NCBI GenBank assembly: GCA_028718945.1
Contig: JAQUKT010000013.1
Coordinates: 1 to 32,204, forward strand
DNA length: 32,204 nucleotides
From: Actinomycetota bacterium
GTDB taxonomy: Bacteria; Actinomycetota; Geothermincolia; Fen-727; JAQUKT01
Direction: 5' to 3'
A program made the translations under genes and the position numbers. Positions 5,034 through 27,468 of the stretch are shown one piece after another (the first letter of the stretch is position 1; each line of letters begins with the position of its first letter). The notes beneath the pieces are model-generated. The model did no database searches. It saw only the letters and a program-made list of their open reading frames with translations, and was not told the DNA's origin.

Positions 5034-5504
5034 GAAAATGTGTTATTGCAAGACCTGACCCCAATAAGGATAGTTGCGTTCCTTTGCAACTGGTGCTCTT
5101 ATGCGGGTGCTGACCTCGCGGGCGTGAGCAGGCTTTCATATCCAGCCAATGTGGTAACGATTAGGGTCATGTGCTCCGGGACGGTTTCTCCCTATCATGT
5201 ATTGAAGGCTTTTCAAAGCGGGGCTGACGGGGTTCTGATAACTGGTTGCCATATCGGGGATTGCCATTACCTGAAAGGAAACTACATGACCTACAAGCGC
5301 TTCCAAGTGATTCAGGGGCTGCTTCAATTTGTGGGGATTGAGCCCGAGAGGTTCAGGCTCGAATGGATATCGGCATCGGAAGGCGAGAAATTCGCGGAGA
5401 CGGTAAGAGACTTTACTGAGGAAGTGGGAAAACTCGGGGAAAGTCCTCTTGCGGATGAGCGGGAAGCCGCGAAATCAAGAGAAGCCTTGATGCGGAGGTT
5501 TTAG
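5022..5504 (+). CDS. mvhD: MvhD-type [2Fe-2S] electron-transfer subunit
   Basis: This 160-residue protein is homologous to the delta subunit of F420-non-reducing hydrogenase, which wires hydrogenase or formate dehydrogenase to HdrA. Diagnostic motifs are CNWCSYAGADLAGVSR (Cys 22, 25), VMCSG (Cys 51) and GCHIGDCHY (Cys 76, 81). Its position between hdrA and the formate dehydrogenase genes supports that coupling role. ATG 5022 has GAGGG (5008-5012) nine bases upstream; GTG 5019 is an alternative with a six-base spacer. Codons for about residues 5-13 (ENVLLQDLT) lie within a dispersed repeat, so the first 14 residues are an acquired extension ahead of the normal family start (IRIVAFLCNW). Confidence 0.92.
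   Translation: MASDENVLLQDLTPIRIVAFLCNWCSYAGADLAGVSRLSYPANVVTIRVMCSGTVSPYHVLKAFQSGADGVLITGCHIGDCHYLKGNYMTYKRFQVIQGLLQFVGIEPERFRLEWISASEGEKFAETVRDFTEEVGKLGESPLADEREAAKSREALMRRF
5035..5062 (-). repeat. Dispersed repeat copy C, inside the 5' coding end of mvhD
   Basis: This is a complete copy of the repeat in minus orientation (AAAATGTG through TGACCCC). It lies wholly within the mvhD frame without introducing a stop and supplies part of the N-terminus. Confidence 0.9.
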
Positions 5505-6325: not shown

Positions 6326-8428
6326 ATGATTGATGAGGAAATGGTTGACTATAGAACTGTTCCAACCGTGTGCCCGTACTGCGGAGCCGGTTGCGGGATG
6401 CTCTTGGAGGTTTGCTCAGGGGAGGTTATTGGCGTTCTTCCCATGAAGGGTCATCCATCATCAAAGGGTAGTCTGTGCGCGAAAGGATGGTCTTCGCCGG
6501 AGTTTTTGAAAAGCTCAAATCGGTTGGCGAAAGCGATTCTCAGGGAAGAAGGCGAGGAAAAGGAAGTTTCACTTGAAAGCGCTCTTGGTCTGGTTGTTGA
6601 GAATCTGAATCGCGTACTCGAGAAATATGGTCCAGAGGCTGTGGGTTTCATTTCCTCTGCACGGTGCACGAATGAGGAAAATTACCTTCTCGAGAAGTTT
6701 GCAAGGACTTTCGCAAAAACAAACAACATTGACCACTGCGCGCGTTTGTGACACAGCCCTACCGTCGCGGGTCTCGCGGCAGCGTTTGGGAGCGGTTCGA
6801 TGACGAATTCGATAGGCGAGATTTCCCGCGCTTCTCTGTTGCTCGTTGTTGGCTCGAATACTACCGAGAATCACACGGTAATTTCCGGGAAAATCATAGA
6901 GGCAGTGCGCAACGGGGCAGAACTGATAATAATTGACCCGCGTAAAATCCAGTTGAGCCAGATTTCAAGCATGCATCTCAGGAACAAGCCCGGTACGGAC
7001 GTCGCTCTTCTTTGTGCGATGATGAAGTTGATTATTGATGAGAAATTGCACGATGAGAATTTTATCGGTGAGAGGACCGAAGGATTCGAGGAACTGAAAG
7101 CATCTTTGGGAAATTGCACTTCTGCGTGGGCATCTGAGGTAAGCGGCATCCCGGTGAGCGAAATTGAAAAGGCGGCAAGGCTTTTCGCGGGAGCAGAGAA
7201 TGCCTCAATCATCTACTGCCTGGGGGCAACGGAGCACGTCTCTGGAACGGACATTGTTCGAACGCTTGCAAATCTTTCTATGCTCACCGGAAATGTCGGT
7301 AAACCATCGAGCGGCGTCAATCCCCTGAGGGGTCAGAACAATGTTCAGGGTGCCTGTGATATGGGAGCGCTTCCCAATTCGCTTCCGGGTTATGTGAATG
7401 TAAGTGATGATGAGGGCAGGAAAGAGTTCGAGGACTTGTGGGGAATAAAGATTCCTGAAAGTCCGGGGCTTACCGTTCCGGAGATGATTGAGCAGGCTTT
7501 GGCGGGGCGCATGCACTTCATGTTCATAATGGGAGAGAACACGGTTCTTTCTGAGCCAAACTCGCAGAAAGTCATTGAAGCATTAAAGAATATCGAATTT
7601 CTCGTTGTAGAGGACATCATGAAAACTGATACAACCGACCTTGCGGACATCGCCATTCCCGCGGCTTGCTGGGCTGAGAAAGAGGGGACATTCACGAGCA
7701 CTGAAAGAAGAGTTCAGCATGTGGGAAAGGCGGTTGAGCCTCCTGGAGACGCGAAATCCGACCTTGAGATTCTCGTTCGTCTTGCCGGTATTGCAGGAGC
7801 AGAAGGGTTTGATTTCAAGAACTCGAGAGAGGTGTTTTCTGAAATTACAAAAGTTGTGCCTGCTTATGCTGGAATCAATTATGAGCGAATTGGAACAAAG
7901 GGAATTCAATGGCCATGCTCTTCCCCCGAGCATGAGGGAACGGTTTTTCTCCATGAGAAAAAATTCACCCGTGGGAAAGGAAGATTCCAACCCGTCAAGT
8001 ACAGACCTCCGGCGGAAGTTCCCGATAATGAATTTCCTTATGTCCTGATGACGGGGAGGAACGCGTTTCAGTATCATACCGGAACAATGACGAGAAACTC
8101 TCCTTCGCTTGAGAGGGAGGCAATGTATCCCTATGTCGAGATAAATCCATCTGATGCGCAAAAGGAATCTGTCAAGGGCGGGGATATGGTAACGATTTCA
8201 ACAAGGAGAGGTCAAATAAGATTACGCGCCCGTGTTACTGACGCGGTATGCGAGGGTCAGATATTTATTCCTTTCCATTACAGGGAAGCGCCGGCGAATA
8301 TCCTGACAAGTGAAGAACTCGACCCGGAAGTGAAAATCCCCGAATTGAAGGTTTGCGCCGCAAAAATCAAGAGGGGTCAATCAAGAGGGGTCAGGTCTTG
8401 CAATAACACATTTTTGAACTCCTTTTAA
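6326..8428 (+). CDS. fdhA: Selenocysteine-containing formate dehydrogenase, catalytic subunit
   Basis: This 700-residue molybdenum/tungsten enzyme oxidises formate to CO2, or the reverse. The N-terminal [4Fe-4S] site is CPYCGAGC (Cys 16, 19, 23) plus Cys 51 in SLCAKG. The frame meets TGA at 6749-6751 and continues in the same frame. Reading it as selenocysteine 142 gives ARL-U-HSPTVAGLA, the exact active-site context of Sec-dependent formate dehydrogenases, and a SECIS hairpin follows. The molybdopterin domains continue to the C-terminal cofactor-binding part (LMTGRNAFQYHTGTMTR). I see no twin-arginine signal, so a cytosolic location is expected. The last residues (RGVRSCNNTFLNSF) come from a dispersed repeat and adjoining bases rather than the family. 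The start is ATG 6326, with AAAGGGA about 11 bases upstream. Confidence 0.93.
6749..6780 (+). promoter_or_regulatory. UGA selenocysteine codon with bacterial SECIS hairpin
   Basis: After TGA (6749-6751), GTCGCG at 6764-6769 pairs with CGCGGC at 6775-6780 (one G-U pair) around the five-base loop GGTCT. The same GGUCU loop lies 18 nt after the UGA in the E. coli fdhF SECIS, and 18 nt separate them here too. This would recruit SelB with Sec-tRNA at codon 142 of FdhA. Confidence 0.9.
8367..8415 (+). repeat. Dispersed repeat copy D with a 14-bp tandem duplication, at the 3' end of fdhA
   Basis: The repeat core is at 8387-8415 in plus orientation. It is preceded by two tandem 14-bp units, TCAAGAGGGGTCAA (8367-8380) and TCAAGAGGGGTCAG (8381-8394), the second merging into the repeat. 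It is read in frame as the FdhA C-terminal tail. The following 107 bases up to the aminotransferase contain an AT-rich stretch but no clear promoter or terminator that I can defend. Confidence 0.85.
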
Positions 8429-22792: not shown

Positions 22793-23638
22793 TCATTTTC
22801 GATGTACCGGCCCCGGGCATGGTACATACTGGTGGTCTTCTATTCCCGATACCGGCATCACCTCCATGAGGGCGTTCGTGAGAAAAACTTCCTCTGCTTC
22901 GAATATGGCTTCCGGTCCTTCAGTAACTGAGTTTACGGGAATTTCCTTCTCGGCGCATATTTCGATTATCGCCTCGCGGGTGATGCCCGGCAGGAGCCCA
23001 CATCCCAGATCCGGGGTGCGGATGTTTCCATCCCTCACATAGAATATGTTTGAACTCGTTGCTTCCGCGATGTTTCCGGCGGTTGTAAGCATCAAAGAGT
23101 CATCGGCTCCGCGGTCGTACGCTTCCTGCCTTGCGATGAGAGAATCGGCGTAATTTCCGGTTTTCGTATTCGACAGAGGGGAGGAGGAATTTCTTCTTAT
23201 GTTAGATATGATCAAACTCATTCCTTTCTCATAGAACCGGCGCGGGTACTCTTCGAGTCGCTTTGCGATGATGAAAAAAGAGGGTGGTTCCTGCCTTCGA
23301 AGTCCGGTTTGGCCAGAGGAAATACCTCCGGTTACAGTTACCCTTAGGTATGCGTCACAATCCCTCAAGTTGTTTTTTTCGACAAGCCCGAGCGAAAGTT
23401 CCTTCAGCTCCACTGGAGCAACTGGAAGAGCAGTCCGCATTGCTGAACAGCCACTCCGAAGTCTTTCGAGATGCCTCTCGAGCCGGAAGGGCTTTCCATG
23501 GTAAGACCTTATTGTCTCGAAAACGCTGTCGCCAAAAAAAACAGCCCTGTCGAAGATGCTGATTTTCGCCTGATGGCTTTCGATGAACTCCCCATCGAGA
23601 ACAACATATTTCTTTTCTTTTGAGTCTTTCATGTTCAT
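22793..23638 (-). CDS. pabC: Aminotransferase class IV, likely 4-amino-4-deoxychorismate lyase; 3' end frameshifted
   Basis: This 281-residue fold-type IV PLP enzyme would release p-aminobenzoate from aminodeoxychorismate. It has the PLP lysine in SNTKTGNYADSL (Lys 159) and the GLLPGITREAI and EVFLTNALMEVMPV signatures. Downstream of pabA and pabB the lyase role is favoured over branched-chain or D-amino-acid aminotransferase. The frame stops after PGPVHRK, but one base over it continues MMKWYRELVSRELDLTL to a TAG at 22743, which is the expected family C-terminus (PGPVTRK then a YRELV-like helix). A single missing A in the run before the stop explains this. The shortened protein may still work. 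ATG 23638 has no clear ribosome-binding site. Confidence 0.8.
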   Translation of the reverse strand: MNMKDSKEKKYVVLDGEFIESHQAKISIFDRAVFFGDSVFETIRSYHGKPFRLERHLERLRSGCSAMRTALPVAPVELKELSLGLVEKNNLRDCDAYLRVTVTGGISSGQTGLRRQEPPSFFIIAKRLEEYPRRFYEKGMSLIISNIRRNSSSPLSNTKTGNYADSLIARQEAYDRGADDSLMLTTAGNIAEATSSNIFYVRDGNIRTPDLGCGLLPGITREAIIEICAEKEIPVNSVTEGPEAIFEAEEVFLTNALMEVMPVSGIEDHQYVPCPGPVHRK

Positions 23639-23647
23639 GATTGAGTT

Positions 23648-25096
23648 TTATTTTGTGGCGAAGCCCGAGATTGCTTGGAAAAGGGCTTTTCCTTTGTCGA
23701 GCGTTTCCTGATATTCAGCTTCGGGATCGCTATCGGCAACTATCCCTCCTCCAACCTGGAAATAGATTCTTTTGCCATGCGCAATCATCGTTCGAATTGC
23801 TATGTTCAACTCATGATTACATCCAAAACCCAAAAAGCCGATTGAACCAGTATATACGCTTCTTTCGGTTGGCTCGAGTTCGTCTATTATCTCGATTGCC
23901 CTGATTTTTGGCGCGCCGGTAATCGAACCGCCCGGGAACGTTGCCATCAGCAAATCAACAATATCCCTGCTTTCATGAAGCGCTCCCTCCACCGTCGAGA
24001 CGAGATGATGGACGGTGGCGTATGACTCTATGACCGCATGTTCCTTGACATTCACGCTTCCATATTCGCATACCCTTCCAAGGTCATTTCTCTCGAGGTC
24101 AACAATCATCGAAAGTTCCGCTCTATCCTTTTCGCTTCCGAGAAGTTCTTCTTTTAGCTCGAGGTCTCGTTCAGGGTCAAGACTTCTCGGTCGGGTTCCC
24201 TTTATCGGTCTTGTTTCAACATTTTTTCCTCTAACTCTCAAGAAAAGTTCCGGGGAGGATGAGAGAATCTGGAAGTTGCCGAAGTTCAAAAAAGCGCTGA
24301 ACGGGGCTGGATTTGTCTTTCTCAATCTTTCATAGAGGCAAAGAGGGTTCTCGCGCAGGTCTGTTTCGAACCTCTGAGAAAGATTCGCCTGGTAGATGTC
24401 TCCTGCAAATATGTATTCTTTTACTTTTTTCACCGCTTCCACGTACTCCTCGCGGGAAAACCCCGAGGCGAAACGCGGTTTGTGCCTGCTTTGGCGCTTT
24501 TCGATCGGCGTCTTTTTGCGAGCCACTTTCCCAAGTTCCTGAAGCGCCTCTCTCAAGGAATCTCGAGTTTTTTCTCCTCCGGTGGATGTAACCACAAGAT
24601 ATCTTTTCCCTTTGATGTGGTCTTCAACCACGATTTTGTCGTAGAAGCAAAAGGCAAGTTCAGGCAGCCAAAGGTCACAAACGGCGCTTGATGGGAGCTT
24701 TTCAACATATCTTCCGAGTTCGTATGAAAGGTATCCTATGCCTCCGGAAAGGAAAGGTGGAAGTTCGGAGTGGCTCTCTTTCATTTTTGCGAAAGCAAGA
24801 GCCATGCGAAGGGCATCAAACGGATTGCTTTTCCTTATCTCTGCTGATTTTCCCCGCTGCTTGAAATTTGCAGCAAGCCCTTTTGTTTCAAGGACGACAA
24901 TTGGGCCAAATCCAAAAATCGAGGTCTTTCCGAGACGACCGTCAACGAGGCTCGAGTCGAGAAAACAGGAGTAGGGCTTTTCCGCTATTCTTTTGAAAAG
25001 CTCAAAAATTTCAACCTCTCGAGGAATCTCAACAATCTCCATCTCGACTTTCGCGTTTCTCGAAAGACCTTCTTCGGTTGCGATTGTTTCCATCAC
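23648..25096 (-). CDS. pabB: Aminodeoxychorismate synthase component I
   Basis: This 482-residue chorismate-utilising enzyme joins chorismate and ammonia from PabA to make 4-amino-4-deoxychorismate. Hallmarks are YIFAGDIYQANLSQRF, PIKGTRPRS (near residue 297), ELSMIVDLERNDLGRV and FPGGSITGAPK. The Lys in PIKGT is the PabB-specific catalytic lysine; anthranilate synthase (TrpE) has PIAGT, so a tryptophan role is less likely. Its start overlaps the pabA stop by four bases, and pabC follows after nine bases, giving a complete pabA-pabB-pabC folate set. Several CTCGAG palindromes lie within it. Confidence 0.92.
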   Translation of the reverse strand: MMETIATEEGLSRNAKVEMEIVEIPREVEIFELFKRIAEKPYSCFLDSSLVDGRLGKTSIFGFGPIVVLETKGLAANFKQRGKSAEIRKSNPFDALRMALAFAKMKESHSELPPFLSGGIGYLSYELGRYVEKLPSSAVCDLWLPELAFCFYDKIVVEDHIKGKRYLVVTSTGGEKTRDSLREALQELGKVARKKTPIEKRQSRHKPRFASGFSREEYVEAVKKVKEYIFAGDIYQANLSQRFETDLRENPLCLYERLRKTNPAPFSAFLNFGNFQILSSSPELFLRVRGKNVETRPIKGTRPRSLDPERDLELKEELLGSEKDRAELSMIVDLERNDLGRVCEYGSVNVKEHAVIESYATVHHLVSTVEGALHESRDIVDLLMATFPGGSITGAPKIRAIEIIDELEPTERSVYTGSIGFLGFGCNHELNIAIRTMIAHGKRIYFQVGGGIVADSDPEAEYQETLDKGKALFQAISGFATK

Positions 25097-25668
25097 GTCT
25101 CCAGAAAGTTTTGAAGAATTACGAGACCTTCTTCAGTCATGAATGACTCTGGATGGAATTGGATTCCCTCGATAGGGTAAGCCTTATGTCTTATTCCCAT
25201 GATGACTCCATCATCCGTTCTGCTTGTAATCTCGAGGCAGGAGGGCAGCGATTCCTCATCGACAACAAGTGAGTGATAACGGGCTGCCTTCAAGGGCGAT
25301 TTTATCCCGCTAAAAATCCCCTTTCCATCGTGGTGCACTGCTGAAGTCTTTCCATGCATTACTTTTCTTGCGCGCACTACCTTTCCGCCAAAGGCTTCTC
25401 CTATTACCTGGTGTCCCAGGCAAACGCCGAGCGTTTTGATTTCCGGACCAAATCTCAAGACTATTTCTTTGCTCAGTCCGGCATCACGGGGAGCCTTTGG
25501 ACCAGGAGAGATTACTATTCCATTTGGCTTTATTGCTTCTATCTCGGACATTTCCGTATGGTCGTTTCTGAAAACTATTAGTTTGGCTCCGAGGATGCCA
25601 AGGAATTGAACGAGGTTGTAGGTGAATGAGTCGTAATTGTCAACCATCAATATTCGCCTTTGGGGCAA
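25093..25668 (-). CDS. pabA: Glutamine amidotransferase component of aminodeoxychorismate synthase
   Basis: This 191-residue class I glutamine amidotransferase supplies ammonia to PabB. The triad is visible: Cys 83 in GVCLGHQ, and His 172 and Glu 174 in FHPES. The N-terminal VDNYDSFTYNLVQ is shared by PabA and TrpG, and such proteins may serve both pathways; the pabB neighbour favours folate. The start is TTG 25668, with GGAGG (forward 25676-25680) seven bases upstream. An intrinsic terminator ends only a few bases before that ribosome-binding site, so expression probably depends on readthrough. Confidence 0.92.
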   Translation of the reverse strand: MPQRRILMVDNYDSFTYNLVQFLGILGAKLIVFRNDHTEMSEIEAIKPNGIVISPGPKAPRDAGLSKEIVLRFGPEIKTLGVCLGHQVIGEAFGGKVVRARKVMHGKTSAVHHDGKGIFSGIKSPLKAARYHSLVVDEESLPSCLEITSRTDDGVIMGIRHKAYPIEGIQFHPESFMTEEGLVILQNFLET

Positions 25669-25682
25669 CGGAAAACCTCCAT

Positions 25683-25744
25683 AAAAAAAACCAGCCTATA
25701 CGGCTGGGTGCCGGTCAGTTGCTGACCGCCTGACATACCGTCAG
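25683..25744 (-). terminator. Three-hairpin leader ending in an intrinsic terminator, before pabA
   Basis: On the minus strand three hairpins follow each other: CTGAC/GTCAG (25744-25730), CTGACCG/CGGTCAG arms (25728-25712, 3-nt loop), and CCAGCC/GGCTGG (25707-25691, 5-nt loop) followed by eight U (25690-25683). The pabA ribosome-binding site starts two bases later, leaving no room for a promoter in between. An alternative CGGC/GCCG pairing across 25713-25694 would break the terminator stem. This is the layout of a transcription attenuator. It could instead merely end upstream transcription. Confidence 0.75.
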
Positions 25745-25761
25745 AAAAAGTCTAAACCAAT

Positions 25762-25789
25762 GGGGTCAGGTCTTGCAATAACACATTTT
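25762..25789 (+). repeat. Dispersed repeat copy F, upstream of the pab leader
   Basis: This is a complete copy in plus orientation between the pab leader and the nucleotidyltransferase pseudogene. On the minus strand its TTGCAA (25778-25773) lies 18 bp before TAGACT (25754-25749), a possible weak promoter for the pab transcript. Confidence 0.9.
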
Positions 25790-25913
25790 CAGTTCTATTT
25801 TGCCCTTCCGTTTGTTGAATGATTACTAAAGAGCAGTATTTCATGCAACTACTATTTTCAAATATCCCTTGCTCATGTTTTGCTTCAAGGGAAAAGGGAA
25901 GCAGTTTGATTTC

Positions 25914-26530
25914 TTAAAGCGAAAATGGAGCATTAAACGGGGTAGTATCCACCATAAGCGCTCTTTCTTGAGTGAAGGGAATAATCGTACGAAGGATTGA
26001 ACGAGAAAAAAAGTGTAAATGGGAACCATAAAGGTTCGTTCTTCTGCTCATAGATAGATGGATGTGCCCTGTCTCCTTTTTCAACTTTTGAAAAAACACT
26101 GCTGAGCTTTTTGTCAGAAATACTTCCCACTATCATAATGTCAATGTCACTTCCGGGGTGCTCCTGACCTTTTGCAAACGAGCCATAGATAAAACAAAGT
26201 TCAATTCTTTCCAGCCCGGATAGAGATTCACGTATGACATCACCGGCGCCCAAGGTTTTGAAGAAAACTCTTTTTAATTCATCATAAAGTGGGAAATCCA
26301 AGTTTACCTTGAGCGCTTCTGGTTTCCTTCCCAGAAGGATGTAAGAAACTGGATTTCCTCGAGATTGAGAAGTTCACGGCGAAGCTGTCCTCCCGGTACT
26401 CCAAGAAGTCTTTCGAGCTGGCGAAGATAGTAACTTCTTCCGGAACCGAGCAAGAAATGAGAAAGCACTCTTACCTGGGTATAGGAAGAAAAAAAGACCT
26501 TTCAGTAATGATTCTGATTTTATCCTGCAT
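25914..26530 (-). pseudogene. Frameshifted HTH-nucleotidyltransferase (MNT-like) gene
   Basis: Three frames are needed to follow one protein. ATG 26530 gives MQDKIRIITERSFF and stops at 26471. A second frame carries a winged-helix part, VRVLSHFLLGSGRSYYLRQL to LTSFWEGNQKRSR, stopping at 26304. A third, from 26307, carries VNLDFPLYDELKRVF and the nucleotidyltransferase motif GSFAKGQEHPGSDIDIMIVG. After KVEK the frame drifts again; the best-looking tail ends at 25914. Intact relatives join these parts in the same order (wHTH, then MNT). The shifts lie near a run of seven T and near 26310. Residual activity is unlikely. No HEPN partner gene is seen beside it. Confidence 0.75.
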
Positions 26531-26583
26531 TGCTTGAAACCCCCTTTAGTGCATTCGCTATAATAATTATCTCGATAGAAATT

Positions 26584-27405
26584 CTACACGAGACCCGGAA
26601 TTACTTCCAGCGCATTTTTGTAGCATAACTTCTCGCGGATTTCATCGGGGATTTCGATTTGCGATAACTCCGAAACGATTCTTTTTCTCGAGACAAGAGG
26701 ATAATCACTTCCCAAAAGAGCCCTATCCTTCACAGGTCCTTTCATGTAGCTCCAGATAAAAGGCGGGATTCTCTTGGGTGCCCATCCGGCTATGTTGAAA
26801 TAAACGTTTTGGTTTCGCTGTACGACCGCCATTGCTTCCTCATACCAGGGCCAGCCGAAATGCGCGATTATGATTTTCAGCTCGGGGAGATCAACCGCGA
26901 CATCGTCAATGTCGATTGGTTTTGAATACTTGAGTTTTGTTCCTGCGTGAAATTGCGTTCCGGTATGGAAAAGCACGGGTATTCCAAGATCGCAAGCCTC
27001 CTTGTAAACCCCGTACATCTGCTTGTCATTTGGTTTGAGTTCAACCAGGTGCGGCAGAATTTTCAGCCCTCTCAAGCCAAGTTTTTCCACAGCATGCCTC
27101 AATTCACGTTCGGCAATTTTCCCTTTGTTCGGATCAACGCTTGCAAACCCTATGAACCTGTCTGGATTCGACGAGACCGCTTCGGCGACCATTTCATTTG
27201 AGACCCTGTAGTTCCATTTCGTCTCAGCATCAATCGCGACGATTACCGATTTCTCCACTCCGGATTCGTCCATGTCAGCGATGGTGTCCGCGATCGTTGG
27301 AAGATTGTTGCCGAATATGCGAATATGACTGTCACGCATATCCTCTGGCATTGACGCTATTGCCTCTTTTGTCCAGAGCTGGGAATGGGTGTCGATTATT
27401 CTCAA
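26584..27405 (-). CDS. Amidohydrolase-family (amidohydrolase 2) TIM-barrel protein
   Basis: This protein of about 273 residues is of the metal-dependent amidohydrolase-2 type (decarboxylase/hydrolase superfamily). Visible metal or catalytic positions are IIDTHSQ at the N-terminus, LFHTGTQ, IIAHFGWPW and LLGSDYPL (Asp). The usual N-terminal HxH is HxQ here, so metal binding may differ. I prefer TTG 27405 (MRIIDTHSQLW), with GGAG (forward 27414-27417) eight bases upstream. ATG 27426 would add seven residues and has GGGAGG only three bases away. The substrate is unknown. Pyrophosphatase lies upstream on the same strand. Confidence 0.8.
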   Translation of the reverse strand: MRIIDTHSQLWTKEAIASMPEDMRDSHIRIFGNNLPTIADTIADMDESGVEKSVIVAIDAETKWNYRVSNEMVAEAVSSNPDRFIGFASVDPNKGKIAERELRHAVEKLGLRGLKILPHLVELKPNDKQMYGVYKEACDLGIPVLFHTGTQFHAGTKLKYSKPIDIDDVAVDLPELKIIIAHFGWPWYEEAMAVVQRNQNVYFNIAGWAPKRIPPFIWSYMKGPVKDRALLGSDYPLVSRKRIVSELSQIEIPDEIREKLCYKNALEVIPGLV

Positions 27406-27468
27406 AGCAATAACTCCTTTCTGCATGATCCTCCCGAATCGAAAAATCCGCGAGCAGTTTTGCCTTTT

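Follow-up and report, generated by a model that had tools for sequence, protein, structure and literature searches.

The pabA-pabB-pabC operon in the window (the whole stretch of 32,204 nucleotides analysed) is preceded by a short leader, which is almost certainly a conserved regulatory RNA working through an intrinsic terminator. The initial annotation had described an attenuator-like leader at this place, and the comparison of leaders bore this out: the element was conserved in 28 of the 31 genomes of the class Candidatus Geothermincolia, once in each and always 5' of pabA. As far as our Rfam and literature searches reach, it is undescribed. The pab genes serve para-aminobenzoate (pABA), a building block of folate, and the leader looks like an undescribed switch for the synthesis of a folate precursor, probably a riboswitch. 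The conserved element comprises approximately 45 nt and overlaps the terminator. An RNA of this size can readily be synthesized and probed, so that both its ligand and its direction are open to direct test, and it gives access to gene regulation in a class represented almost solely by genomes of uncultured organisms.

The pab operon and its leader in the window

The operon lies on the minus strand. pabA (25093-25668, with a likely TTG start at 25668) encodes a glutamine amidotransferase (PF00117, E 1.4e-56; TIGR00566 above its cut-off). The pabB product (23648-25096) scored 379.8 bits with TIGR00553 (cut-off 328.4) and 445 bits with the trpE model TIGR00564, which is under the cut-off of 517.7. 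Since the protein passes the aminodeoxychorismate synthase cut-off and not that of anthranilate synthase, the gene was assigned as pabB, coding for component I of aminodeoxychorismate synthase. The third gene (22793-23638) encodes a PabC-like class IV aminotransferase (PF01063, E 1.8e-57); it is an aminodeoxychorismate lyase by context, and no specific NCBIfam model scored over its cut-off. Two relatives carry additional genes between pabB and pabC, namely a small frame and a polysaccharide deacetylase (G011, L120:5933-7161) and a flavodoxin gene (G007, L121:6299-6883).

The leader, consisting of an aptamer-like element and an intrinsic terminator, occupies positions 25742-25683 of the minus strand (approximately 60 nt). 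Read from 25742, its sequence is GA-CGGTATGTCAGGCGGTCAGCAACTGACCGGCACCCAGCCGTATAGGCTGG-TTTTTTTT, followed by the ribosome-binding site GGAGG (25680-25676) and the TTG start. The conserved motif proper spans 25742-25699, and the terminator extends to 25683. Three hairpins had been noted ahead of pabA, the last with eight U and ending two bases before the ribosome-binding site, and all of these are present on the minus strand: H1 (CTGAC-GGTAT-GTCAG, 25745-25731, one further pair possible), H2 (GGTCAG-CAA-CTGACC, 25727-25713, with the closing pair C25728-G25712) and H3 (CCAGCC-GTATA-GGCTGG, 25707-25691). H3 is followed directly by T8 (25690-25683), and GGAGG begins two bases after this run. The G+C-rich hairpin and the T-run together form an intrinsic terminator (25707-25683), which was found by a terminator scan of the window. 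The region 25683-25789 folded better than its shuffled counterparts (z = -3.25), as did the leader at 25683-25742 (z = -3.99). The 5' part of the former interval (~25757-25789) lies outside the leader motif, being the terminal part of a dispersed repeat.

Conservation and taxonomic range

The motif CGG[U/C]AUG-N(2-4)-AGGC-[hairpin]-GGCACCCAGCC occurred in exactly one copy in each of the 28 genomes, 5' of pabA. Among the conserved columns, CGG[U/C]AUG is separated by two to four variable bases from AGGC; next come a hairpin whose length differs between genomes, GGCACCCAGCC[G] and a short loop. In the relatives, the 3' end is usually GGCUGGGU with a T-run, forming a terminator equivalent to that of the window. 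Identity reached 93-100% per column in CGGTATG and GGCACCCAGCCG, against a flank mean of 42%, and GGCACCCAGCC was identical in 28 of 28 genomes. The alignment used (A2) holds 25 rows; MAFFT applied to all 28 rows misaligned the variants with loop insertions. A DNA search with the leader returned ten relatives, with each match in front of pabA, and in the loci obtained by a PabA protein search across 59 genomes, the same block was present upstream in every case, across the order as well as the class. Wherever a pabA locus of the class is complete (25 loci), the motif precedes pabA.

The class genomes are nearly all metagenome-assembled, and three were without the motif. One has no pab genes (G001), one has only a TrpE/TrpG-like pair (G003), and in the third (G004) the contig begins at pabB, so that pabA and its leader are missing from the assembly. 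G003, which is 99% complete, and G001 lack pabA and pabB and retain HPPK; these organisms may import pABA or use another route to it.

A covariance model was built from the first 45 motif positions of 25 sequences and used to search a sample of 397 actinomycetotal genomes, including the 31 of the class. The only match among the approximately 370 other Actinomycetota of this sample was a weak one (E 0.007) in a G+C-rich stretch. When 84,980 species were scanned for the exact pattern, Actinomycetota of the Geothermincolia group were recovered, including Candidatus Solincola sediminis, quzhuomuensis, daggyaiensis and tengchongensis, all placed by NCBI in the class Candidatus Geothermincolia, and no credible motif was obtained outside the class. 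The outside matches that were inspected lay mostly within open reading frames and had low model scores; three of them, in Bacteroidota, were antisense to an apparent PriA zinc region.

No known riboswitch had been recognized in the leader initially, and the family searches agree with this. Scanning the window and 19 loci against Rfam 15 at gathering and permissive thresholds gave only spurious matches. THF-II (RF02977) exceeded its gathering score in none of the 31 class genomes and gave no sub-threshold match at the motif. THF-I (RF01831) was not found in the Rfam scans of the leaders, nor in the 31 class genomes, the latter being a weak negative, as the control genomes had no match either. 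Neither Rfam 15 nor the main texts of the open papers searched hold a structured leader, riboswitch or other relevant motif for pab genes, and the main texts of two large surveys of novel bacterial RNAs make no mention of pab or folate.

Promoters and the region upstream of the leader

In families f5 (all 15 genomes) and f7, 16 genomes together, a TATAAT box precedes the motif, ending 9-11 nt short of its GG. Eight genomes of family f4 have a TAGAAT, TACAAT or TATAAT box that ends 30-39 nt before it. These conserved -10 boxes indicate that the RNA starts 5' of the motif, and the proposal that pab transcription must pass the terminator thereby held in the relatives. Just upstream of the leader promoter in one relative (G028, L018:1294-1372), there is a long, near-perfect inverted repeat, which gave a spurious mir-606 match.

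Compared with its f4 relatives (L010, L011, L014), the genome of the window carries an insertion of ~830 bp (25757-26583) between an amidohydrolase gene (26584-27426) and the pab leader. An f4-like promoter box, TAGAAT (~26586-26581), is still found at the end of the amidohydrolase gene, ~840 bp from the leader. The space between holds an MntA-like nucleotidyltransferase gene (25933-26301), for which no partner toxin was recognized, and the dispersed repeat. The insertion thus parts the leader from its presumed old promoter. The sequence TTGCAA (25778-25773), 18 nt, TAGACT (25754-25749) on the minus strand is a possible promoter, proposed from its position and from a spacing to the motif like that of TATAAT in f5; it was below the threshold of the promoter scan and was not listed there. 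As a guess, it could be a replacement that uses the repeat end as its -35 box and starts the RNA at ~25742.

The dispersed repeat comprises ~155 bp (25757-25912, minus strand), with further occurrences at 5041-5062 and 8387-8408 of the window. Its end, TGTTATTGCAAGACCTGACCCC, is found at 45 places in this genome. Some of these ends form inverted pairs within ~85 bp (C1:70373-70458, C40:14066-14150, C18:21445-21530), so the repeat looks like a small mobile element of the MITE/REP type. As a source of the leader hairpins it was ruled out, since it ends at ~25757, outside the motif.

Covariation and predicted folds

Two stems, P1 and P2, enclose a conserved internal loop. P2 coincides with hairpin H2 (25728-25712, pairs C25728-G25712 to G25722-C25718, loop CAA; the loop length varies among the genomes). 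Four of its five pairs showed two-sided changes, and at three pairs the compensatory changes exceeded a null obtained by simulation along the pabA tree (p<0.0005, 0.012 and 0.0115). P1 is formed by nCGGU-A-UG paired with CAGCCGn around the internal loop N(2-4)AGG / GCACC. In the window, its 5' strand, A-CGGU-(A bulge)-UG, lies at 25741-25734 within the near-invariant CGGTATG. The 5' side of the loop follows (J12, UCAGG, 25733-25729), in which AGG is invariant and preceded by two to four variable bases in alignment A2. The 3' side (J21, GCACC, 25711-25707) belongs to the invariant GGCACCCAGCC and overlaps the 5' arm of the terminator by one base. The 3' strand of P1 (CAGCCGU, 25706-25700) is at the same time the terminator 5' arm and constitutes the switching segment: it can pair either with 25741-25734 or with 25696-25691.

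We calculated P1-loop-P2 to be the minimum-energy fold of the nascent RNA, before the 3' arm of the terminator is made, in 22 of the 28 genomes, including that of the window; in the other six a different fold was predicted. Adding the 3' arm flipped the predicted structure from P1-loop-P2 to the terminator, which in the full-length class leaders was favored over P1 by 3.8-18.6 kcal/mol (mean 9.8) in predicted energy. The covariation of P1 is weak, with tree-aware p values of 0.07-0.2 per pair. The changes seen were A-U for C-G in G015 and U-G in G024, while the outermost position was A-U, U-A or G-C in different families. Cognate strands paired better than swapped ones (p = 0.03). Taken with the predicted folds, the P1 stem is probably real.

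Of the three hairpins first noted, H2 (the covarying P2) and H3 (the terminator) are conserved among the relatives, but H1 is not, being formed with at least 5 bp in only six of the 28 genomes. The suggested swap of the CTGAC/GTCAG segments between H1 and H2 was likewise peculiar to the genome of the window and a few others. A CGGC/GCCG pairing had been put forward as the means of disarming the terminator. The local hairpin CGGC-ACCCA-GCCG does exist, but it is mostly invariant and its outer pair lacks covariation (p 0.6); the better-supported competitor of the terminator is the long-range stem of CGGU-A-UG with CAGCCG.

Two genomes of family f6 (G015 and G024; L073 and L071) separated the conservation of the element from that of the terminator. 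Their terminator is GGCACCC/GGGTGCC, in a different register from ACCCAGCC/GGCTGGGT, and they nevertheless retain GGCACCCAGCC and the 5' block (GG-AUG-AGGC). P1 is compensated in both, by an A-U pair in G015 and as UGGC/GCCG in G024. Since GGCACCCAGCC was kept despite the new register, its conservation is not due to its role as a terminator arm; judging from the alignments, it is conserved for an aptamer-like fold. The 5' block CGGUAUG..AGG, which has no terminator role, is equally conserved, and the unpaired AGG and CACC bases are invariant. The f6 leader represents a natural case in which the expression platform has changed and the sensor has not.

Proposed mechanism and alternative explanations

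The leader combines a conserved structured RNA, conserved unpaired bases and an expression platform, as riboswitches do in general. By their pairing, the terminator and the P1-loop-P2 fold are mutually exclusive on sequence grounds. Because the terminator in either register destroys P1-loop-P2, this fold acts as the antiterminator. Left to itself, the complete leader RNA is predicted to end up in the terminator, and transcription of pab must therefore depend on a factor that keeps the antiterminator in place. On balance, we favor a transcription attenuator that is switched ON by a small molecule. We infer that P1 forms in the cell, that the effector is a metabolite and that its direction is ON. 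The RNA would begin just 5' of the motif; P2 would form first, and the irregular P1 would then close around the conserved internal loop. If there is no stabilizer, the incoming 3' arm GGCUGGGU would capture ACCCAGCC, and the resulting terminator would stop transcription before pabA. A ligand bound in the internal loop would hold P1 and block the terminator, so that the pab genes are transcribed.

The ON logic in a biosynthetic operon suggests that a substrate or a partner precursor is sensed, and not the end product. The folate pathway has two branches, supplying the pterin and pABA. All genomes of the class encode HPPK and hence have the pterin branch. A ligand signalling the need for pABA, such as 6-hydroxymethyl-dihydropterin diphosphate or chorismate, would fit by analogy, which is conjecture; with one associated gene only, the ligand is poorly constrained, and our confidence in any given one is low. 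That the leader forms a new riboswitch class restricted to Candidatus Geothermincolia, which senses the pterin half of folate (e.g., 6-hydroxymethyl-dihydropterin diphosphate) or chorismate and turns on the pABA half, is a tentative proposal that we consider possible and rather doubtful.

In the same scheme, P1 could be stabilized by a protein instead of a small molecule, which is less likely. An RNA-binding protein would then favor the irregular P1-loop-P2 over the overlapping terminator, comparably to LicT and SacY at RAT hairpins. The geometry matches, with one irregular hairpin containing a bulge and an internal loop over the terminator 5' arm, and a single copy per genome at one target gene would also suit such a regulator. 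However, two to four bases are tolerated between AUG and AGG, the apical loop is free to vary, and no gene for a linked RNA-binding regulator was seen among the annotated neighbors of pab. We consider protein-dependent antitermination unlikely.

The opposite direction was also considered, i.e., an OFF riboswitch in which the end product (pABA, dihydrofolate or tetrahydrofolate) holds a fold of the 5' block and P2 and thereby frees the terminator arm. Repression by the end product is usual in biosynthetic operons. THF-II, which has a P1-loop-P2 aptamer, represses folE (PMC6800512, PMC9881143), but no THF-II match was obtained here. The terminator already wins energetically without aid, according to the predicted energies. 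Moreover, GCACCCA, the invariant 3' half of the loop, is found in or beside the terminator arm, which makes the conserved fold incompatible with the terminator in both registers. These observations make an OFF switch quite improbable.

That the hairpins are fortuitous, or simply terminate the upstream gene, and do nothing for pab expression is a very remote explanation. There is a same-strand gene upstream in the window (25933-26301), and short terminator-like matches do arise by chance (three found against 1.7 expected), but the -10 boxes of the relatives lie just 5' of the motif, and the conservation, with its invariant unpaired bases and its one copy per genome always at pabA, far exceeds that of a terminator. 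Attenuation by a leader peptide starting at the AUG of GGUAUG is the least credible reading of all: the AUG is present without exception in the 28 genomes, but its U and G are paired in the predicted P1, the frames opened by it are between 1 and 278 codons long, GGCACCC is met in each of the three frames, and the genomes share no short frame, peptide or run of regulatory codons, in keeping with the initial annotation, which had recognized no leader peptide.

Comparison with known regulatory RNAs

The favored small-molecule attenuator can be set beside four known systems. The RAT of the BglG/LicT type is an irregular hairpin sharing sequence with the 5' arm of a terminator, whose formation it prevents when stabilized. 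The pab leader has the same arrangement, but it is longer, is found without PTS or sugar genes and has no linked regulator in sight. To our knowledge, an invariant internal loop sequence such as that of the pab leader has not been described for RATs. THF-I shares the control of folate-related genes with the pab leader and differs as a family of 99 positions with another architecture.

THF-II (the folE motif) is closer in layout, having P1, an asymmetric conserved internal loop and P2, a folate pathway gene as its target, and a narrow taxonomic range with one gene association (PMC6800512, PMC9881143). In contrast, it is confined to folE of Rhizobiales and acts on translation through a ribosome-binding site in P1, whereas the output of the pab leader is a transcription terminator; here, the right arm of P1 is a terminator arm, and the gene is pabA.

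In its way of working, the pab leader most resembles the HMP-PP riboswitch (thiS motif), whose aptamer is embedded in a terminator and which senses one thiamin precursor and activates the genes for the other (PMC6478431). Both combine a very small aptamer, which shares sequence with an intrinsic terminator, with a distinct ON-state P1 (PMC6478431). Both govern one branch of a two-branch vitamin pathway with ON logic, which for pab is our reading. The aptamer and terminator folds are mutually exclusive in the pab leader as well, by sequence and predicted energies. The likeness extends to the way of working only. The pab leader differs in sequence and phylum and lies before pab in every case, not before thiazole genes. 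It lacks the HMP-PP consensus, and it matched no family of the Rfam library, which may not include an HMP-PP model. In the thiS motif, P2 is the tip of the terminator, whereas in the pab leader P1 and the internal loop have only the 5' arm of the terminator in common with it, and in most genomes P2 is not part of the terminator. If a folate precursor is sensed rather than folate, the pab leader would be the second case, beside HMP-PP, in which the branches of a vitamin pathway are balanced by a precursor-sensing RNA, and if that precursor is the pterin half or chorismate, it would be the folate counterpart of the HMP-PP riboswitch.
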